From assembly GCA_003165415.1 (NCBI GenBank), contig PLUC01000095.1, positions 1 through 34,848 on the forward strand: a stretch of 34,848 nucleotides of DNA. Direction: 5' to 3'. The position numbers and the translations under genes are program-made. This stretch comes from Holophagaceae bacterium (GTDB taxonomy: Bacteria > Acidobacteriota > Holophagae > Holophagales > Holophagaceae). A model generated the notes under the pieces. The model did not search any database and was not told the DNA's origin. It worked only from the letters and a program-made list of their open reading frames with translations. Below, piece after piece: positions 5,503 through 15,767 of this stretch. Each line of letters opens with the position of its first letter. Position 1 is the first letter of the stretch.

Positions 5503-6405
5503 ATGTTCTGGGCCGTGGCCATGTTCCTCACGACACTCTGCTGGGCCGGCGCCTTCATCGCCGCCAAGGTCGGCGTGCGCTCGGCCTCGCCGCTGGCGCT
5601 CACCTACTTCCGCTTCCTGGTCGCGGCGGCCTGCCTCTACGGCTACGCGCGCGCCATGCGCATCCCGCTGCGGATCCGGGCGCGGGACTGGGGGGTCATG
5701 CTCCAGCTGGGCTTCGTGGGCATGGTCTGCTACCACCTGCTGTTCTTCGAGGCGCTGCGCACTACCACCGCCATCAAGGCCTCCATGATCATGGCCACCA
5801 ACCCGCTGATGATCGCCGTCCTGGCGGTCTTCCTGGCGGGGGAGCGCATGGGCCGGGCCAAGGTGGTCTGCATCCTCGCGGCCCTGCTGGGCGTCCTGCT
5901 GACCATCAGCCGCTGGAACCTGGCGCGGCTGGCCCAGGGCCATGCCGCCCCCGGGGACCTGATCATGCTGGTGGCGGTGGTGTGCTGGTCCCTGTACTCG
6001 GTCCTGGTCCGGCGCTACGTGGGCCGCTTCGATCCGGTGGTGACCACATTCTACAGTTTCGTCACCTGCGTCATCCTGCTCACCCCGTTCGAGGCCTGGG
6101 AAGTGGCCTCGGGAGCCAGCCACATCCGGCTCGACGGCTGGCTGGCCATCGCCTACATGGGCGTGTTCCCCACCTTCTTCGGCTACACGGTGATGCAGCA
6201 GGGCATCAAGCACCTGGGGCTCAGCCGCACGGCCCTGTACGTGAACCTGGTGCCGGTGTTCGCCATGTTCATGGCGGTGCTGCTGCTGCACGAAGCCTTC
6301 TTCCCGCTCAACGCGGTGAGCGCCGCCCTGATCATCGCCGCGGTCATGAGCTACTCGCTGCTCGGACCCAGGACCCCGAAGCCATTGGCGCAAGGGCCAG
6401 CCTAG
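5503..6405 (+). CDS. EamA/DMT-superfamily transporter
   Basis: Inner-membrane permease of 300 residues with about ten hydrophobic helices arranged as two EamA halves, roughly 1-140 and 150-295. Typical features are an N-terminal helix with CWAGAFIAAK and the conserved stretch TTAIKASMIMATNPLMIAVLAVF. Family members export amino acids or other metabolites; the substrate cannot be read from sequence. It starts 13 bp after aroC with GAGGAG seven bases upstream, so it may be co-transcribed with the aromatic pathway genes, which makes an aromatic metabolite a conceivable cargo (inference). Its last 62 bp overlap the end of lysC on the other strand. Confidence 0.9.
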   Translation: MFWAVAMFLTTLCWAGAFIAAKVGVRSASPLALTYFRFLVAAACLYGYARAMRIPLRIRARDWGVMLQLGFVGMVCYHLLFFEALRTTTAIKASMIMATNPLMIAVLAVFLAGERMGRAKVVCILAALLGVLLTISRWNLARLAQGHAAPGDLIMLVAVVCWSLYSVLVRRYVGRFDPVVTTFYSFVTCVILLTPFEAWEVASGASHIRLDGWLAIAYMGVFPTFFGYTVMQQGIKHLGLSRTALYVNLVPVFAMFMAVLLLHEAFFPLNAVSAALIIAAVMSYSLLGPRTPKPLAQGPA

Positions 6406-7777
6406 CCGCAGGTTTGGTCCTCGGGGCGCTCTTCGCCGGGGGATTGGGGAACAGGGCCGCGTGCAGGGCCCTCAGCGCCGCGCCGGCGTCCTCCTGGCGC
6501 ACCACGAAGCTCAGGTTGGTCTCGTTGGCGCCCATGCTGATCAGTTCGACGTTGATGGCCTCCAGGGCGCCGAAGCAGTGGCCGGAGATGCCGGGGGTGC
6601 GCTTGAGCCGCTCGCCGACGACGGCCACGATGGCCCGGCCCCGCGCCACGCCCACGTTGCCGAACCCGGCCAGGTCCCTCAGCAGGCCTTCCAGGGGCGC
6701 GGCGCCATCCACCGTGAGGGAGACGCTCCCTCCGGTGGTGGCGATGAGGTCGATGCTGATGTGGTGGCGGGAGAACACCTGGAACAGCCCGGCCTTGGCC
6801 TGGAAGCCGTCCTGGTCGAGCCCGGCGCCGGTGTTGATGGTGAGCACGGTGACGGGGCCCCGCTGGGCCAGGGCGGTGACGGAGCGGTGGGTGCGCGCCT
6901 CGGCGGTGATGGTGGTGAAATGGCCCCGGGGCCGGCGGGTGGAGCGCACCGTGACCGGGATGCCGGCGGCCATGGCCGGCTGGATGGTGGCCGGGTGCAG
7001 CACCTTGGCGCCGAACGCCGCCAGCTCCGAGGCCTCCTTGAAGCTCAGCTGGGCGATGGGCCGGGCCCCGGGCACCACCCGGGGATCGCAGGTGAGCACC
7101 CCCTCCACGTCGGTCCAGATCTGGATATCCGAGGCCCCCAGAGCGGCGCCGAACAGGGCCGCGCTGAAATCGCTGCCGCCCCGGCCCAGGGTGGTGGTGA
7201 CGCCGCCGGCGGTGGCGCCGATGTAGCCCTGGGTCACCACCGTCCGGCCGGCGCCCAGCAGGGGTGCCAGGTGCCGCCCGGCCAGGGCCGGGATCTCCTC
7301 CTGCCGGGGCCGGGCGGAGCCGAAGCCGTCATCGGTGCGCAGCACGGTGCGGGCGTCCACCCAGGCGGCCCCCAGGTGGGCGGCCAGGATCCGGGTGGAA
7401 AGGCGCTCGCCGATGCTGGCGATGGCGTCCATGCTCCTCGGGCTGAGCTCGCCCAGCATGGCCACGCCGCGCAGCCGCAGGTCCAGCTCCCCGCCCAGCT
7501 CCGCCAGGGCCTGGTCCAGGGACGCGGGCAGGCCGTCCGGGAACAAGTCCCGGGCGATGCCGAGATGGCGCGCCATGAGGCTCCGGTGCAGTTCCAGGGC
7601 CGCGGGCAGATCGCCCCGCTCGGCCCGGCGGCCCGCCTCGAACAGCGCGTCGGTGGTCCCGCCGGTGGCCGAGAGCACCACCAGGGGCGCCCGGGGCGAC
7701 TGCGCCGCCAGCGCCGCGGCCTCGCGCATGCGGTCGGCGTCCGCCACCGAACTGCCGCCGAATTTCATGACGATCAT
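6344..7777 (-). CDS. lysC: Aspartate kinase (LysC type)
   Basis: Phosphorylates aspartate, the first step towards lysine, methionine, threonine and diaminopimelate. 477 residues from MIVMKFGGSSVAD. The kinase domain (about 1-285) shows KFGGSS, SIGERLSTR, GGVTTTLGRGGSDFSAAL and WTDVEGVLTCDPR. Two ACT-type regulatory domains follow (FQVFSRHHISIDLIATTGGSVSL and the GANETNLSFVV region), as in feedback-inhibited monofunctional LysC. The start at 7777 has GGGGGAA eight bases upstream; ATG 7768 is also possible. The last ~28 residues, rich in Pro, Ala and Ser, extend beyond the usual end and are encoded opposite the 3' end of the EamA gene. I looked upstream for a lysine riboswitch and saw none. Confidence 0.94.
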   Translation of the reverse strand: MIVMKFGGSSVADADRMREAAALAAQSPRAPLVVLSATGGTTDALFEAGRRAERGDLPAALELHRSLMARHLGIARDLFPDGLPASLDQALAELGGELDLRLRGVAMLGELSPRSMDAIASIGERLSTRILAAHLGAAWVDARTVLRTDDGFGSARPRQEEIPALAGRHLAPLLGAGRTVVTQGYIGATAGGVTTTLGRGGSDFSAALFGAALGASDIQIWTDVEGVLTCDPRVVPGARPIAQLSFKEASELAAFGAKVLHPATIQPAMAAGIPVTVRSTRRPRGHFTTITAEARTHRSVTALAQRGPVTVLTINTGAGLDQDGFQAKAGLFQVFSRHHISIDLIATTGGSVSLTVDGAAPLEGLLRDLAGFGNVGVARGRAIVAVVGERLKRTPGISGHCFGALEAINVELISMGANETNLSFVVRQEDAGAALRALHAALFPNPPAKSAPRTKPAARLALAPMASGSWVRAASSS

Positions 7778-9009: not shown

Positions 9010-11313
9010 TCATCCGGCGGCGGCGCGGTCCAGGCACCAGCGCCGCCACATCTGCCGGAGCGCCCCCTCCAGGCCGCGGGCGAAGCGGTCCCCGTCCATG
9101 AGGGGCGAGGCCTCCATGCGCGCCCGCAGCCCGGCCCGGAGCCCGGCCAGGCGCGGGCGGTCCAGGGCCAGCTCCGCGGCGATGCGGACGAAGTCCCCGG
9201 TGCCGGCCGCCGCCAGGTCCCGCAGGCCCAGGTTGCACAGCTGGCTCCAGCCGGCCCGGCCCACCACGGTGCCGCCCAGGAGGGTCACCACCGGGACCCC
9301 CATCCAGGCGGCGTCCAGGCTGGTGGTGTGGCCGTTGTACGGGAAGGTGTCCAGCCCCAGGTCCACCCGCCGGTACAGGGCCAGGTACGAGGGCCGGGGC
9401 TGGGAGGGGGCGAACTCCACCCGCTCCGGCCCGATCCCGCCCGCCGCCAGGCCCTCCAGGGCCCGCTGCCGCTGGGCTCCGGGCTCGGCCAGCAGCAGCA
9501 GCCGGGAATCCGGCACCGCGGTCAGCACCCGGGCCCAGGCGGCCAGCGCGGCGGGGGTGACCTTGCAGAAGTTGTTCAGGGAACCGAAGGTGATGTGGCC
9601 GTTCGCCAGGGCCGGCAGGGGGCCGGGGAGGGGTTCGGCGGTGAGCGGGTCGTAGCACCAGAACGTGTCCGGAAGGCGGATGGAGGTCTCGGAATACCAG
9701 TCGTCATGTTCTCCCGGCGGGTCCAGGTAGGGGTCGGTCAGGCGGTAGTCCATGGCCGCGAGGCCGGTGGTGCCCGGATAGGCGAGCCAGGCCACCTGCA
9801 CCGGCGCGGGCCTGCGGGTGAACATCCCGGGCCGGCCGCCGGCCATGTGCATGGTGAGGTCCACCAGGATGTCGATGCGGTCCGCCCGCACCAGGTCCGC
9901 CACCTGCTCGTCGTCCTGGGCGGCGGTGTCGCGCCAGACATCGGCGTACCCGGCGATGCGGCGGGTGACTGCGTCGGGGCTGGGCACCCTGGCGTAGCAG
10001 AAGATCTCGAACCGGCTGTGGTCGTGGCGGGACAGCAGGGGGATGGTGAAGAAGGACTGGCAGTGGTCCCGGAAATCGGGTGAGACGTAGCCGACGCGCA
10101 GGCGGCGCTCGGGGTCGGGGTCGCTGCCGTGGGGGCGCCGGTCCCCCCCGGGTGAGGCATGGGCCCGGTCCCACGCCAGGTTCTCGCCGAGGATGTCCGC
10201 CGCGCTGCATCCCGGGAGGAAGTTCAGCGAATAGGCGAGGTTGCTGTGGGTTACGGGGTCGCCGGGGTTCAGCTTCAGGGCCCTGCGGAAGCTCTGGACG
10301 GCTTCGGCCACCAGGCCGGAGTCCTTGAGCAGGCTGCCCAGGTTGCCGTGGGTGATGGCGTAGCCCGGCCGCAGCTCGGCGGCGCGCCGGAGCAGGGCCA
10401 CCGCTTCGTCCAGGCGGCCCAGGGCCCGGGCGGCGGCGGCCGCGTGGTTGCAGGTGTCCGCGGAGCACGGGTCCATGCCCAGGGCCTCCCGGTGGACCGC
10501 CAGCGCCTCCTCCCACTGGCCCATGGCCTGGAGCGCCCGGCCCAGGTTGTTGCGCGCCGCGAGGTTGGCCGGAGCCAGGGCCAGGGCCCTGCGGCAGGCC
10601 CCGGCGGCCTCCTGGAACAGGCATTCCCTCAGGTTGGCGCTGCCCAGGTTGTACCAGCCAAGGGCGAAATCCGGCCAGCGGGCCACGGTCCCGCGCAGCT
10701 CGGCCAGGGCTGGGCCCACCTGCCGGTTCGCCAGCAGGGCGTTGCCCAGGTTGTTGTGGGCGAGGGGGAAGTCATCCTTCAGCTCCAGTGCGCGGCGGAA
10801 GGCCTGGATGGCTTCGGGCACCTGTCCCGAGTCCTGGAGGGCGATGCCCAGGTCGTTCTGGGCTTCGGCCTGGTCCGGCCGCAGGGCCGCCGCGCGGGCG
10901 ATGGCGGCCAGGGCTTCCGGGCGCCGGCCCAGGGCCCGGCAGGCTTCGCCCGCGCCCCGCCAGGCCTCGAGGCAGGCGGGGTTCAGCGCCGTGGCGCGGT
11001 GGAAGGCTTCGATGGCCTCCGGCAGCCGGCCCAGGGCCTGCAGCGTCTGGCCCAGACTGCAATGGGACCACCAGGCGGCGGGGTCCAGGGCCACGGCCCG
11101 TCCGAGCAGTTCCAGGGCCTTCTCCAGCCGGCCCCGTCCCACCTGCAGGGCCAGACTCCCCAGCAGGTGCAAAGCCGTCCCGTGGTCCGGCTGCCGGGCC
11201 AGCACCAGCCGGTAGCCCTCCTCGGCATCCGCCAAACGGCCGGCCAGATGGCTCTCCGCGGCCGCCTTCAGGAGCTGCTCCAGCGTCAGGTCAGGCTCGG
11301 GGGAGGAAGCCAT
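9010..11313 (-). CDS. TPR protein with SPINDLY/O-GlcNAc-transferase-type catalytic domain
   Basis: 767 residues. An N-terminal superhelix of about ten tetratricopeptide repeats (residues ~10-385, repeated LG-AL--G-EA and A-NNLG patterns) is joined to a GT41 domain from about residue 402. That half contains RLRVGYVSPDFRDH, VQVAWLAYPGTTG, FGSLNNFCKVTP (Lys near 582, matching the UDP-binding Lys of human OGT) and LDTFPYNGHTTSLDAAWMGVPVVT around 660. Known relatives put GlcNAc or fucose on Ser/Thr of cytoplasmic proteins; bacterial members also modify adhesins or flagellins, so the donor and target here are open. The start at 11313 has GGAG five bases upstream. There is no signal peptide. It stands alone, convergent with the hydrolase. 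Confidence 0.93.
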   Translation of the reverse strand: MASSPEPDLTLEQLLKAAAESHLAGRLADAEEGYRLVLARQPDHGTALHLLGSLALQVGRGRLEKALELLGRAVALDPAAWWSHCSLGQTLQALGRLPEAIEAFHRATALNPACLEAWRGAGEACRALGRRPEALAAIARAAALRPDQAEAQNDLGIALQDSGQVPEAIQAFRRALELKDDFPLAHNNLGNALLANRQVGPALAELRGTVARWPDFALGWYNLGSANLRECLFQEAAGACRRALALAPANLAARNNLGRALQAMGQWEEALAVHREALGMDPCSADTCNHAAAAARALGRLDEAVALLRRAAELRPGYAITHGNLGSLLKDSGLVAEAVQSFRRALKLNPGDPVTHSNLAYSLNFLPGCSAADILGENLAWDRAHASPGGDRRPHGSDPDPERRLRVGYVSPDFRDHCQSFFTIPLLSRHDHSRFEIFCYARVPSPDAVTRRIAGYADVWRDTAAQDDEQVADLVRADRIDILVDLTMHMAGGRPGMFTRRPAPVQVAWLAYPGTTGLAAMDYRLTDPYLDPPGEHDDWYSETSIRLPDTFWCYDPLTAEPLPGPLPALANGHITFGSLNNFCKVTPAALAAWARVLTAVPDSRLLLLAEPGAQRQRALEGLAAGGIGPERVEFAPSQPRPSYLALYRRVDLGLDTFPYNGHTTSLDAAWMGVPVVTLLGGTVVGRAGWSQLCNLGLRDLAAAGTGDFVRIAAELALDRPRLAGLRAGLRARMEASPLMDGDRFARGLEGALRQMWRRWCLDRAAAG

Positions 11314-11370
11314 GAATGCTCCGTGAGGTTCCCTGTATTGTGCCGCCAACGGGCCGCATGGGACCGTGGA

Positions 11371-11376: not shown

Positions 11377-11404
11377 CAAACCGGGAAGCCAGCGGAGCGG
11401 ACTC

Positions 11405-12418
11405 ATGGCCCAAGTGCCTTGGCAGGAAGAATACAGCATCAACTACAAGGACATCGACCAGCAGCACAAGGCGCTGCTGGCCGTCGTAAACGAGCTGATG
11501 GATCTCATCGGGCAGAGGGCGGAGCCGGAGCGGGTGACCGCCATCTTCAGGGCGCTGTGCCGTTACGCCACCTTCCATTTCAACACTGAGGAACGCTACC
11601 TCCAGGCCAGCGGCTACGATGGCCTTTCCCGGCAACGCTCCGAGCACACCTGGTTCATCGAAAAGCTGCTGGAGCTGGACCGGACCTACGACGTGTCGGA
11701 TCCGATCCTGTTGGGGGAAACCCTGTCGTTCCTGGAGAAGTGGTTCGTCGGCCACATCATGACCCAGGACCAGGCCTATGCCGGCTGGGTGAAATCCTTC
11801 CGTCACCGCGCCGAGATCCGGGCCATCATCTTCGATTTCGGCAAGGTCATCGCCGATTACGATCACGGGCTGTTCGTGGAGCGCCTGGCCGCCGTCTGCG
11901 CCATGTCCGCGGACGAGTTGGCCGGCCGCTTCCGGGAAGAGGGGTCGCTGTTCAACGATTTCGAAGTGGGCGCCATCTCCCCGGCCCAGTTCCTTGGGGA
12001 AATGTCCCGCGTCTGCGGCCATGCCTTGAGCGAGGCCGTGCTCTTTCCGATCTTCACTGACATCTTCACGCCCATCCCGTCCACCTGCGAGCTGATCCGG
12101 AAGCTGAAGGGCCGCTACCGGCTGGGGCTCATCTCCAACACCAACCCGTGGCACTACCAGCACGGCATCCAGGACTCGGAGGCCTTCCCGCTGTTCGACA
12201 CCGTGACCCTGTCCTTCCAGGCGAAAGCCCTCAAGCCCAGCCCGCGCATCTTCGAGGACGCGCTGGAAAAGCTGGATCTGGTTTCCGAGGAATGCGTGTT
12301 CATCGACGACATCCCGGCCTTCGTGGAGGCCGCCAACGGCCTCCGGTTCCACGGCATCCAGTACCGCGGACCCAAGGAGCTGCTGGAGGACCTGGAAGCA
12401 ATGAATATATTATTCTAG
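11405..12418 (+). CDS. Bacteriohemerythrin-HAD phosphatase fusion protein
   Basis: One uninterrupted 337-residue frame with two domains. Residues 1-~130 are a hemerythrin fold: DIDQQHK (His21), HFNTEE (His58, Glu62), SEH (His81) and HIMTQD (His117, Asp122). The position that should be the fourth His, four residues before His81, is Gln77. Residues ~138-337 are a HAD-IA phosphatase: motif I FDFGKV (Asp144), motif II SNTN (Ser244), motif III KP (Lys277) and motif IV FIDD (Asp301/Asp302). This motif set resembles YihX, a glucose-1-phosphate phosphatase. Glycogen phosphorylase lies two genes downstream on the same strand. GGAG lies about eight bases before the ATG. O2- or redox-gated phosphatase activity is my inference; HAD substrate prediction is weak. 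Confidence 0.9.
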   Translation: MAQVPWQEEYSINYKDIDQQHKALLAVVNELMDLIGQRAEPERVTAIFRALCRYATFHFNTEERYLQASGYDGLSRQRSEHTWFIEKLLELDRTYDVSDPILLGETLSFLEKWFVGHIMTQDQAYAGWVKSFRHRAEIRAIIFDFGKVIADYDHGLFVERLAAVCAMSADELAGRFREEGSLFNDFEVGAISPAQFLGEMSRVCGHALSEAVLFPIFTDIFTPIPSTCELIRKLKGRYRLGLISNTNPWHYQHGIQDSEAFPLFDTVTLSFQAKALKPSPRIFEDALEKLDLVSEECVFIDDIPAFVEAANGLRFHGIQYRGPKELLEDLEAMNILF

Positions 12419-12488: not shown

Positions 12489-13217
12489 ATGAAAGCTCGA
12501 GAGTCTTCCTCCCGTTCCTCGAAGCGCCTGGTCCTGCTGGCGTTCCTGGTGTGCGCCCAGGCCTTCGGCGGCATGCCCGAGGGCCGGTTCAATCCGGGCT
12601 TCCGCGGCGGCTACCGCGGCGGCTACGGCTTCCGCGGCGGCTACGGCTACCGCGGCGGCTATTACGGCCGGCCCGGCTGGTACCGGGGCGGCTTCGGCTG
12701 GGGACCCGGCTGGTTCCTGCCGGTGCTGCCCCTGGGCTGCGTGACCATCGGCTTCGGCGGGGCGGCCTGGTACTACGGCGGAGGCTATTGGTACCAGCCC
12801 TATGGCGGCGGCTACATGATGGCGCTCCCGCCGGTGGGGATCGCGGTTGCGGTCCTCCCGTCCGGCTGTTCCACCCTCGTCCTGGGAGGCGTGACCTACT
12901 ACTGCGCCAACGACGTGTACTACACCGCCGTGCCCGGAGGCACCGGTTACGTGGTCGCCGCGCCCCCGCCCGGGCAGCCGCGGGCCGGAAGCCTCGACGC
13001 GGTCGCCCTGGATGCCCTGGTGATCATTCCCAGGAACGGCCAGAGCGACGATAAGATCATGTCCGACCGCCGGGACGCGCAGCGGTTCGCCATGGACCAG
13101 TCCAGCTATGACCCCGCCGACAGCGACCCGGCCGATCCCGGCACGCCCAGGGCGCGGCAGGCCTATCTCCGGGCCATGAAGACCTACCTGGAGGGGAAGG
13201 GCTACACCGTGAAATAG
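12489..13217 (+). CDS. Secreted glycine-rich protein with RGGY repeats
   Basis: 242 residues. The N-terminus (basic, then LVLLAFLVCAQA) is a signal peptide with cleavage probably near residue 25. Next come four RGGY units in a Gly/Tyr/Phe/Trp-rich stretch (about 35-80), then two aromatic Gly-rich hydrophobic segments containing VTYYCANDVYY. The C-terminal region includes PRNGQSDDKIMSDRRDAQR and ends with YLRAMKTYLEGKGYTVK, a pattern I associate with uncharacterised exported DUF families whose C-terminus reads like R-GQS-------D---C--WA--Q. The function is unknown; a surface or periplasmic location is likely. A strong ribosome site, GAGGAGGTGG, precedes ATG 12489. It lies between the hemerythrin-HAD fusion and glgP. 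Confidence 0.8.
   Translation: MKARESSSRSSKRLVLLAFLVCAQAFGGMPEGRFNPGFRGGYRGGYGFRGGYGYRGGYYGRPGWYRGGFGWGPGWFLPVLPLGCVTIGFGGAAWYYGGGYWYQPYGGGYMMALPPVGIAVAVLPSGCSTLVLGGVTYYCANDVYYTAVPGGTGYVVAAPPPGQPRAGSLDAVALDALVIIPRNGQSDDKIMSDRRDAQRFAMDQSSYDPADSDPADPGTPRARQAYLRAMKTYLEGKGYTVK
12597..12665 (+). repeat. In-frame tandem repeat encoding RGGY units
   Basis: Imperfect 12-18 bp units built around CGCGGCGGCTAC, repeated four times and coding for the RGGY motifs of the glycine-rich protein. Near-identical codons in all copies suggest recent slippage expansion. Confidence 0.7.
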
Positions 13218-13304: not shown

Positions 13305-15767
13305 ATGGCGATCGGCATCCGGAACATCCCCCAACCCGCCCCCGGCCGGCTCGATGTCCCGGGGATCATCGACGGCTTCGCCCACCGGATGATGTACTCG
13401 GTGGCCCAGGACCAGTTCACGGCCCGGACCTTCGACGTGTACCAGGCCCTGGCCAGGACCGTGCGCGACCGGCTGATGGAGCGCTGGTTCAAGACCCAGA
13501 ACACCTACTACCAGCGCGACGCGAAACGGGTCTACTACCTGTCCCTGGAGTTCCTGATGGGGCGGTCGCTGCGCAACAACATCCTCAACCTGGACGCGGA
13601 GGACGCCTACGGCCGGGCCATGGAGGAGGTGGGCTTCCGCATGGAGGACATCGCCGAGCAGGAATGGGACGCGGGCCTGGGCAACGGCGGTCTCGGGCGC
13701 CTCGCCGCCTGCATCCTGGACGCCGCGGCCACCCTGGAACTGCCCTTCTTCGGATACGGCATCCGCTACGAGTACGGGATCTTCCAGCAGAAGATCATCG
13801 ACGGCGCCCAGGTGGAGTTCCCCGACAACTGGCTGCGCTACGGCAATCCCTGGGAGATCCGGCGCTCCGACGTCATCTACCCCGTGCGCTTCCACGGCCG
13901 CACCCAGGCCGGCCTGGACGCCCAGGGCGACTACCGGGTCGACTGGGTGGACACCCAGGATGTCTGGGCCATGGCCTTCGACACCCCCATCGCCGGGTTC
14001 CGCAACAACACGGTGAACACCCTGAGGCTCTGGTCCGGGCGCTCCAGCCGCGAGTTCGACCTGGGCCGCTTCAACGCCGGCGAGTACGTCAAGGCGGTCC
14101 AGGACAAGACCCTGTCCGAGAACATCTCCAAGGTCCTCTATCCCGCCGATGACCAGAGCGCCGGCAAGGAGCTGCGGCTCAAGCAGCAGTTCTTCTTCGT
14201 TTCGGCGACGCTCCAGGACGTGGTCCGGCGCTTCAAGAAGCGGCCCCGGTGGCGGTGGGAGGAGTTCCCGGACAAGGTGGCGGTCCAGCTCAACGACACC
14301 CATCCCTCCCTGGCCATCCCGGAGCTGATGCGGGTCCTCATCGACCAGGAAGGCCTGGGCTGGGACCTGGCCTGGGAGCTGACCCAGAACGTGTGCGCCT
14401 ACACCAACCACACGATCCTCCCCGAGGCCCTGGAGGTCTGGTCCACGGAGCTCCTTCGCCAGGTCCTGCCGCGGCACCTGGAGCTCATCGAGGAGATCGA
14501 CCGCCGCTTCCGGGTGGTGGTGCGCGGCCAGTATCCCTTCAACGACGCCAAGCTGGACCGCCTGGCCATCGTCGACCACGGGCACAGCGTGCGCATGGCC
14601 AACCTCGCCATCGTCGGCAGCCACTCCGTCAACGGCGTGGCCCGGCTGCACACGGACATCCTGAAGGCCTCCACGTTCTCGGAGATGAACGAGCTGTTCC
14701 CGGGCCGCATCAACAACAAGACCAACGGCATCACCCCCCGCCGCTGGCTGCTGCGCTGCAATCCGGGCCTGTCCGCGCTCATCACCGAGGCCATCGGCGA
14801 CGGCTGGACGAAGGATCTCGACCAGCTGCGCGGGCTCGCCGCATTCGCCGGCGACGCCGCCTTCCAGGACCGGTGGACCCGGGTCAAGCGCGCCAACAAG
14901 GAGGCCTTCGCGGCGGCGATCCAGGCAGCCCAGGGCGCGGTCATCGACCCGTCCTTCCTGTTCGACGTGCAGGTAAAGCGCATCCACGAGTACAAGCGGC
15001 AGCTCCTGAACCTGATGCACGTGGCGGCCCTCTGGAACCGGCTGCGCGACGGCGGCGACGCCGGGGTCCCGCGGGCGGTCATGCTCGGCGGGAAGGCCGC
15101 GCCCGCCTACTGGGTGGCCAAGACCATCATCCAGCTCGCCGTGGCCCTGGGGGCCGCCATCAACGCCGACCCCATGTGCCGGGGCCGCCTGAGCGTGTCC
15201 TACCTGGAGAACTACCGGGTCACCCTGGCCGAGCAGGTGTTCCCCGCGTGCGAGCTGTCCGAGCAGATCTCCACCGCGGGCACTGAAGCCTCCGGCACCG
15301 GCAACATGAAGGCCGCCCTCAACGGCGCCCTCACCATCGGCACCCTGGACGGCGCCAACGTCGAGATCAAGGACGAGGTGGGCGAGGCCAACATCTTCAT
15401 CTTCGGCCACACCGCCGAGGGGATCGTGGCCCTGCGGGACCGGGGCTACCAGCCCCGGGCCTGGGCCGGCGCCGACCCGGAACTGGCGCGGGCCATCGAG
15501 ACCATCGCCCGCCTCGAAGGCGGACGGTTCGCCTCCGTCGCCGGCATCCTGCTGGACTCGGACCACTACTTCCACTGCGCCGACTTCGCCGCCTATGTGC
15601 AGACCCAGGCCCGTGCCTCCGCAGCCTACGCCAGGACCCGGGACTGGGCGCGCATGTCCATCCTCAACGTCGCCGGCATGGGCCGCTTCTCCATCGACCG
15701 CACCGTGCGGGACTACGCCGCGGAGATCTGGAACGCCGCGGCCGTGGCGGTGCCGCCGGTGCGCTAG
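13305..15767 (+). CDS. glgP: Glycogen/starch (maltodextrin) phosphorylase
   Basis: PLP-dependent GT35 enzyme that splits alpha-1,4-glucan with phosphate, releasing glucose-1-phosphate. 820 residues, the normal length of the classical family. Conserved blocks include YYLSLEFLMGRSL and GLGNGGLGRLAACILD near the N-terminus, VQLNDTHPSLAIPELMR, NGITPRRWL, VQVKRIHEYKRQLLN and the PLP site EASGTGNMKAALNGALT with Lys669. No regulatory extension is visible. The ribosome site is weak (AGGA about ten bases before the ATG). The stop abuts the stop of the convergent aldo/keto reductase with no base between. No other glycogen gene is visible in the window, but a HAD protein with glucose-1-phosphatase-like motifs lies upstream. 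Confidence 0.97.
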   Translation: MAIGIRNIPQPAPGRLDVPGIIDGFAHRMMYSVAQDQFTARTFDVYQALARTVRDRLMERWFKTQNTYYQRDAKRVYYLSLEFLMGRSLRNNILNLDAEDAYGRAMEEVGFRMEDIAEQEWDAGLGNGGLGRLAACILDAAATLELPFFGYGIRYEYGIFQQKIIDGAQVEFPDNWLRYGNPWEIRRSDVIYPVRFHGRTQAGLDAQGDYRVDWVDTQDVWAMAFDTPIAGFRNNTVNTLRLWSGRSSREFDLGRFNAGEYVKAVQDKTLSENISKVLYPADDQSAGKELRLKQQFFFVSATLQDVVRRFKKRPRWRWEEFPDKVAVQLNDTHPSLAIPELMRVLIDQEGLGWDLAWELTQNVCAYTNHTILPEALEVWSTELLRQVLPRHLELIEEIDRRFRVVVRGQYPFNDAKLDRLAIVDHGHSVRMANLAIVGSHSVNGVARLHTDILKASTFSEMNELFPGRINNKTNGITPRRWLLRCNPGLSALITEAIGDGWTKDLDQLRGLAAFAGDAAFQDRWTRVKRANKEAFAAAIQAAQGAVIDPSFLFDVQVKRIHEYKRQLLNLMHVAALWNRLRDGGDAGVPRAVMLGGKAAPAYWVAKTIIQLAVALGAAINADPMCRGRLSVSYLENYRVTLAEQVFPACELSEQISTAGTEASGTGNMKAALNGALTIGTLDGANVEIKDEVGEANIFIFGHTAEGIVALRDRGYQPRAWAGADPELARAIETIARLEGGRFASVAGILLDSDHYFHCADFAAYVQTQARASAAYARTRDWARMSILNVAGMGRFSIDRTVRDYAAEIWNAAAVAVPPVR

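Follow-up and report, generated by a model that had tools for sequence, protein, structure and literature searches.

The question raised by this locus is whether a single polypeptide joins a bacteriohemerythrin to a phosphatase of the HAD-IA type and, if so, whether the first domain governs the second. The window, which is the whole stretch of DNA analysed (34,848 nucleotides; contig PLUC01000095.1 of the Holophagaceae assembly GCA_003165415.1), carries on its forward strand a gene at 11405..12418 that encodes 337 amino acids plus a stop (ATG at 11405, TAG at 12416-12418), and translation of the window revealed no internal stop in this frame. The ORF listing opens the frame earlier, with a GTG at 11366; in most homologues, however, the alignment begins at the 11405 ATG, and a possible ribosome-binding site, GGAG (11394-11397, +), was read by eye from the sequence. 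The N-terminal bacteriohemerythrin domain (amino acids 4-130; 11414..11794, +) was delimited by PF01814, NF033749, TIGR02481, an AlphaFold2 model and PDB sequence matches. Pfam Hemerythrin (PF01814) matches amino acids 15-128 above its gathering score (7e-14), and the NCBIfam bacteriohemerythrin models NF033749 (7.7e-31; 106.9 bits against a cut-off of 84) and TIGR02481 (106.7 bits against 51.75) were both passed. A linker (amino acids 131-137; 11795..11815, +) leads to a HAD-IA domain with a helical cap (amino acids 138-335; 11816..12409, +), assigned from PF00702, TIGR01509 and Foldseek, in which Pfam Hydrolase (PF00702) covers amino acids 138-310 (1.8e-12; 48.5 bits against 26.4) and HAD-SF-IA-v3 (TIGR01509) scores 46.8 bits against 29.4. 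The GC content by codon position is 0.61/0.37/0.88 across the fusion gene, with similar values in the hemerythrin and HAD halves. With exact coordinates and with Pfam and NCBIfam scores above their cut-offs, the unbroken frame from a bacteriohemerythrin into a HAD-IA domain that had been described in the initial annotation was borne out.

A fusion of this kind could in principle be produced by two genes joined through a sequencing or binning error, and the assembly, a bin of 273 contigs with 7.38% contamination, gives some reason for such doubt, as does a duplicated aspartokinase gene. One lysC copy lies at 6344-7771 (-) of the window and the second, 74% identical, on another contig (G000:C10) of the same bin. 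Nevertheless, a first search of 100 relatives recovered fusions that match over their whole length, at 42-50% identity, together with remoter fusions at 29-32%. Since homologous in-frame fusions are present in many other assemblies (full-length, same-frame and 42-52% identical in other genomes), a joined-genes artefact is ruled out for practical purposes. The second lysC, a second GT41 copy (71% identical) and the contamination indicate instead that the contig may belong to a related organism, i.e., another member of the Holophagaceae, which affects the name of the host and not the gene.

HAD phosphatases have a nucleophilic Asp in motif I, a Ser or Thr in motif II, a Lys in motif III and an acidic pair in motif IV; the second Asp of motif I (DxD) is the general acid/base. 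In the window protein, motif I is D144-F-G146 (11834..11842, +), with D144 as the predicted nucleophile and Gly in place of the second Asp, motifs II and III were aligned to S244 (12134..12136, +) and K277 (12233..12235, +), and D301-D302 (12305..12310, +) form motif IV as predicted Mg2+ ligands. Residues were counted in 19 catalytic-type fusions, the window included and one broken copy omitted, and in eight fusions with a degenerate HAD domain, hereafter dead fusions. D144, K277, D301 and D302 are present in all 19 catalytic-type fusions and in all 14 stand-alone HADs of the family, and S244 in 18/19 and 14/14, respectively. The change of the second motif-I Asp to Gly (G146) was found in 18 of the 19 catalytic-type fusions and in all 14 stand-alone relatives, and alignments revealed DxG in the PDB relatives 2i6x, 4jb3 and 4dcc as well; on these alignments, DxG is a subgroup trait. 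The only catalytic-type fusion with a DxD motif I, which also has Ala for S244, is a second copy in genome G048 (L100, 4382-5506, +). Thus, the earlier description of a complete HAD-IA phosphatase stands with respect to the domain and the five catalytic residues, and needs amendment in motif I, which is DxG and not DxD.

The best PDB sequence matches of the HAD part were 4jb3, 2i6x, 4dcc and YihX, and its predicted fold is nearest to 4jb3, YihX, 2i6x and 3cnh (Foldseek TMt 0.85 for the YihX structure 8pno and 0.89 for 3cnh). YihX/HAD4 (8pno, 8pne, 2b0c), BT_0970, BT-2542 and 2i6x have the fold and the HAD motifs in common with the window protein, but they lack a sensor domain and are only ~23-27% identical to the window HAD. 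Stand-alone HADs from the Holophagaceae, and others from the phylum of a Syntrophobacteraceae record (L067), belong to the same HAD family with the same motifs (up to 55% identity in the Holophagaceae) and, unlike the window protein, have no hemerythrin match. Two specific models were not reached: the window protein scores 47.5 bits with the YihX equivalog model (PRK09456), whose cut-off is 295, and 69.6 bits against 125.4 with TIGR02247 (epoxide hydrolase N-terminal-like phosphatase).

The conserved ligand motif of bacterial hemerythrin sensors is given as H-HxxxE-HxxxH-HxxxxD in the part of a review available to us (PMC9388753). In the window protein the ligand positions, identified by alignment, are H21, H58, E62, Q77, H81, H117 and D122 (11465..11770, +; codons starting at 11465, 11576, 11588, 11633, 11645, 11753 and 11768), so that six of seven ligands are found and Gln occupies the first His of HxxxH. 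The domain part of the initial annotation's O2/diiron module therefore held, whereas its iron site has one Gln where a His is normal. Six of the positions (H21, H58, E62, H81, H117 and D122) are invariant in all 27 fusions, catalytic-type and dead; position 77 is His in 20 and Gln in seven, all of the latter being catalytic-type and including the window, and the full seven-ligand set is thus present in 12/19 catalytic-type and 8/8 dead fusions. The seven Gln77 fusions cluster in the hemerythrin tree with a support of 86/75, column 77 itself being among the tree data. Outside the fusions and their two truncates, Gln was found at this position in one (L034) of 24 distinct hemerythrin domains, namely those retrieved in this analysis after one overlapping duplicate was dropped. 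We take position 77 to be a ligand of Fe1 and not of the O2-binding Fe2; judged from the alignment, Q77 may alter or weaken the diiron site, and the Gln-ligand clade offers a test of how a single ligand swap tunes a sensor. A 2008 survey, in the portion available, reported departures from the motif in about one in five prokaryotic hemerythrins, chiefly in those with a single domain (PMC2556348). The window's genome has nine more hemerythrin matches, on several contigs; four lie in frames of 582-955 amino acids and may be multidomain sensors.

In the AlphaFold2 model of the window protein (alignment of 34 sequences; mean pLDDT 93.9, pTM 0.85), the hemerythrin helices span residues 17-36, 41-69, 74-94 and 100-135; the last of these, which carries H117 and D122, runs unbroken into the linker, and the first HAD strand begins at 140. 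No insertion or deletion was observed in the linker of the 27 aligned fusions. The relative orientation of the two domains is a prediction of the model. In a scan of amino acids 137-337, the only position found to differ between fusions and stand-alone HADs was the C-terminal Phe337 (12413..12415, +), which is Phe in 22/26 fusions (L033 excluded) vs 1/14 stand-alone HADs, a post hoc observation; a contact between Phe337 and the hemerythrin is possible.

Taken together with known sensors, this layout leads us to propose, with moderate confidence, that the window protein is a soluble HAD-IA phosphatase gated by redox state or oxygen through its hemerythrin sensor. The N-terminal diiron site would report the oxygen or redox state, and the short fixed linker would join this sensor to a HAD-IA enzyme of the YihX-like DxG subgroup acting as a Mg2+-dependent phosphomonoesterase. 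When the diiron site is oxidised or binds O2, the last hemerythrin helix would shift, and through this helix the diiron state may set phosphatase activity, as we infer by analogy with Bhr-DGC and Bhr-HD-GYP; the binding of iron, the phosphatase activity, and both the gating and the direction it takes are putative here. Direct oxygen or redox gating, as the initial annotation had envisaged, appears plausible from the analogy and the modelled junction. Both Bhr-HD-GYP of Ferrovum and Bhr-DGC of Vibrio cholerae consist, like the window protein, of an N-terminal bacteriohemerythrin and a C-terminal enzyme of phosphate chemistry in one chain, but they are redox-gated c-di-GMP enzymes unrelated to HAD, whereas the window protein is known from sequence and has Gln for one ligand His. 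According to the accessible part of the review, Bhr-DGC is ten times more active in the diferrous form, Bhr-HD-GYP is active in the reduced form only, and hemerythrin sensors in general have a larger substrate tunnel, rapid autooxidation and O2-binding or redox-dependent catalysis (PMC9388753).

The best PDB sequence match of the window's N-terminal domain is the hemerythrin of DcrH (2avk, 2awc), a chemoreceptor that differs from the window protein in its C-terminal hemerythrin and canonical ligands. How the diiron site of DcrH signals onward is called unclear in the same review text (PMC9388753), and a phosphatase-like protein of 337 residues with a short invariant junction would be a simple setting in which to follow signalling from a diiron site to an enzyme.

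The characterised outputs named in the available part of that review are MCP, GGDEF, HD-GYP and P1B-5-ATPase only, and the sensors govern chemotaxis or c-di-GMP, with the P1B-5-ATPases as the odd case (PMC9388753). A HAD phosphatase-like domain is a new output for a known kind of sensor. The P1B-5-type ATPases, whose catalytic domain we take to be a member of the HAD superfamily, resemble the window protein in that a hemerythrin-like domain and such a core share one chain. Unlike the window protein, they are membrane transporters with a C-terminal hemerythrin and an HxE ligand motif (PMC9388753, in part). A literature search on titles and the start of abstracts, the scope of which excluded a figure of 56 architectures in PMC4919030 and French 2008, found no paper recognisable as dealing with a hemerythrin-HAD fusion. 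The earlier suggestion that such an enzyme had not been described is therefore sustained by the search and qualified by the partial precedent of the P1B-5-ATPases. For Acidobacteria, the parts of two surveys available to us mention long hemerythrins with extensions that lack a Pfam match (PMC4919030) and eight single-domain hemerythrins with no chimeric one (PMC2556348).

How widely is the fusion distributed? A scan of 84,980 species with an alignment of the fusions, seeded by two short peptide patterns, yielded 38 loci, of which 17 match both domains (L038-L054; Holophagaceae, Geothrix or Acidobacteria), six the HAD alone (L055-L060) and 14 a single domain in other groups, the remaining one (L061) being a dead fusion in which the HAD is shortened. 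Among 77 genomes of the Holophagaceae, which live in soil and sediment, 38 were matched at E<=1e-30; with classes assigned by matched ranges and the residue table, a catalytic-type fusion was present in 18 (one broken, G107), a stand-alone HAD in 14 and a dead fusion in eight, two of which also have a catalytic fusion. Catalytic fusion and stand-alone HAD were found together in none of the 77 (Fisher p 0.03, phylogeny ignored). In the window's phylum, 119 of 396 genomes were matched at E<=1e-15, mostly with the best five candidates per genome scored, and the full-length matches among those listed were all in the Holophagaceae. Two further phyla gave single domains: each listed match was single-domain in the 58 of 297 genomes matched at E<=1e-30 in the L067 phylum, and hemerythrin only in the two of 398 in the phylum of a Rhodospirillales record (L062), at most seven and five candidates per genome, respectively, being scored among the rows listed. 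Thus, no fusion was found outside the Holophagaceae in the genomes searched, by a method that fusions of hemerythrin with unrelated HADs would escape. One catalytic-type fusion (L040/L084/L108) has an in-frame stop near its start.

In a rooted tree with eight HADs from other families as outgroup, the catalytic fusions are nested inside the stand-alone HADs of the family, and two stand-alone HADs (L022 and L030) are placed among the fusions; a tree with 11 more HADs from the L067 phylum was less resolved around the fusions. Hemerythrin is missing from the matches of the outgroup HADs, so that the enzyme is most likely the older part, and the sequences suggest that hemerythrin was probably added onto a pre-existing HAD enzyme. 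A single origin of the fusion is not proven by these sequences. The free trees contain no single fusion clade, and neither the catalytic and dead fusions constrained as one clade (p-AU 0.72; 9.5 log units above the free search) nor the catalytic fusions alone (p 0.47; p 0.49 in the larger tree) were rejected; the tree program warned of possible attraction between the outgroup and the long branch of the dead fusions. Of the 11 stand-alone HADs taken from the L067 phylum (L128-L138), nine join the Holophagaceae HADs in a group (100/99) from which HADs of the other families in the window's phylum are absent, a hint of transfer.

Many Geothrix-type genomes have the gene flanked on one side by a small membrane protein, which is divergent, and on the other by mutS, which is convergent, with an upstream ABC transporter of nitrate/sulfonate type as read from the sequences. 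As delimited by a rough gene caller, this locus holds a catalytic fusion, a dead fusion or a stand-alone HAD, depending on the species, and thereby offers a natural experiment with a plain HAD, a hemerythrin-HAD, a hemerythrin-dead HAD and tandem pairs. The small membrane protein, which has no Pfam match (L101, 4428-4751, -), is near the HAD in this and 18 others of 34 loci, whether hemerythrin is attached or not.

That sister species fill the same locus with plain HADs implies that gating is dispensable, and is consistent with a different role of the hemerythrin, i.e., as a module that oligomerises, handles iron or ROS, or buffers O2 locally, without gating, the HAD performing house-keeping phosphate hydrolysis. 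This explanation would also accommodate Q77 in the window protein and six relatives, the dead-HAD paralogue and the hemerythrin that two genomes keep alone beside a dead fusion. On the other hand, a linker of constant length and six iron ligands never lost in 27 fusions exceed what a loose tether would need, and we consider a non-gating hemerythrin possible but rather unlikely. Since the paralogue retains the iron site without the catalytic residues, switching catalysis cannot be the only role of the hemerythrin throughout the family, a point that counts against gating of the phosphatase, which we continue to prefer for the window protein.

In the eight dead fusions (L027, L028, L029, L031, L033, L081, L082 and L090) the set of seven iron ligands is complete, and each of the five catalytic residues has been replaced. 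The replacements are consistent (8/8): D144 to Gly or Ala, S244 to Gly, K277 to Leu or Pro, D301 to His or Gly and D302 to Arg, with His-Arg in place of D301-D302 in seven of the eight. Pfam recognised the hemerythrin in the two dead fusions submitted and the HAD below cut-off only, and the one that was modelled (of L042) keeps the HAD fold (pLDDT 90.2, pTM 0.82; best matches 2i6x and 3cnh). The dead HAD domain gave NG86 dN/dS values of 0.15-0.40 in 15 pairs without L028 and 0.52-0.66 in six pairs with it, in seven of the eight dead fusions (L033, with its shortened HAD, omitted) and by a simple method that ignores GC bias; close catalytic-type pairs, from ten of the 19 fusions, gave ~0.11-0.31, with low values in both domains. 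A decaying pseudogene is thus unlikely. In both trees a single branch separates the eight from the remaining sequences (100/100 and 96/99). The existence of this dead twin implies that some members of the family keep the hemerythrin-HAD pair for a role beyond catalysis, most simply for binding or regulation.

Dead and catalytic fusions are adjacent on one strand in two of the eight dead-fusion genomes (G108 and G110), the tandem partners being 53-55% identical in hemerythrin and 29-32% in HAD; G043 and G106 have, directly after the dead fusion, a hemerythrin gene ~50% identical to the window domain, which ends within some 15 residues after the domain. Control of an active enzyme by a dead paralogue has a precedent in trypanosome AdoMetDC/prozyme, as far as the available part of that paper goes (PMC5201418). 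Tandem pairs, purifying selection on the dead HAD in the pairs without L028, and consistent replacements with a retained fold in the one model made could reflect allosteric control of the catalytic fusion by a partner, the hemerythrin-pseudoHAD, acting as a sensor of a ligand or of the redox state. The pairs with L028 argue against this, as does the distribution: at E<=1e-30 six of the eight dead-fusion genomes lack a catalytic fusion, 16 of the 18 catalytic-fusion genomes, that of the window included, lack a dead one, and the two are not associated (Fisher p 1.0). As an explanation of the catalytic fusion, such control is improbable. For the family as a whole we only tentatively suggest a redox-sensing enzyme/pseudoenzyme system, in which an active fusion and a dead twin acting as an O2- or ligand-sensing regulator, perhaps as a heteromer, would occupy one locus, with one, the other or both in a given species.

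The window's own neighbourhood raises one more candidate function. A glycogen phosphorylase gene, glgP (13305-15767, +), is located two genes downstream on the same strand, and YihX, which the HAD resembles, is a specific alpha-glucose-1-phosphate hydrolase in the part of the report available (PMC4251788), so that the substrate could be glucose 1-phosphate from the phosphorylase. Within genus g1, fusion and glgP both occur in the window genome only (1/6), glgP being unmatched (E<=1e-50) in the five other genomes; its nearest matches (84-85%) are in genus g3. In the family, glgP is present in 22/77 genomes and is commoner with the dead fusion, 5/8 (Fisher p 0.04, uncorrected, phylogeny ignored). 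For the catalytic fusion, however, the glycogen link is unsupported, glgP being matched in 4/18 genomes with this fusion vs 18/59 without it (Fisher p 0.57), the YihX equivalog score is far too low, and comparison with 33 other loci by a rough gene caller gave no neighbours in common with the window. We regard this substrate as very improbable; gating of a HAD phosphatase, whatever its substrate, remains our preferred reading.

No operon partner common to relatives was found for the window locus, and a scan for promoters and terminators yielded 0 promoter-like and one terminator-like site, not above shuffled sequences. Between the fusion and glgP lies a DUF6515 gene (12489-13217, +), Gly/Tyr-rich and with a likely signal peptide as read by eye. 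Upstream and divergent is a TPR-GT41 gene, O-GlcNAc-transferase-like (9010-11310, -), a second copy of which, 71% identical, was found elsewhere in the same assembly.
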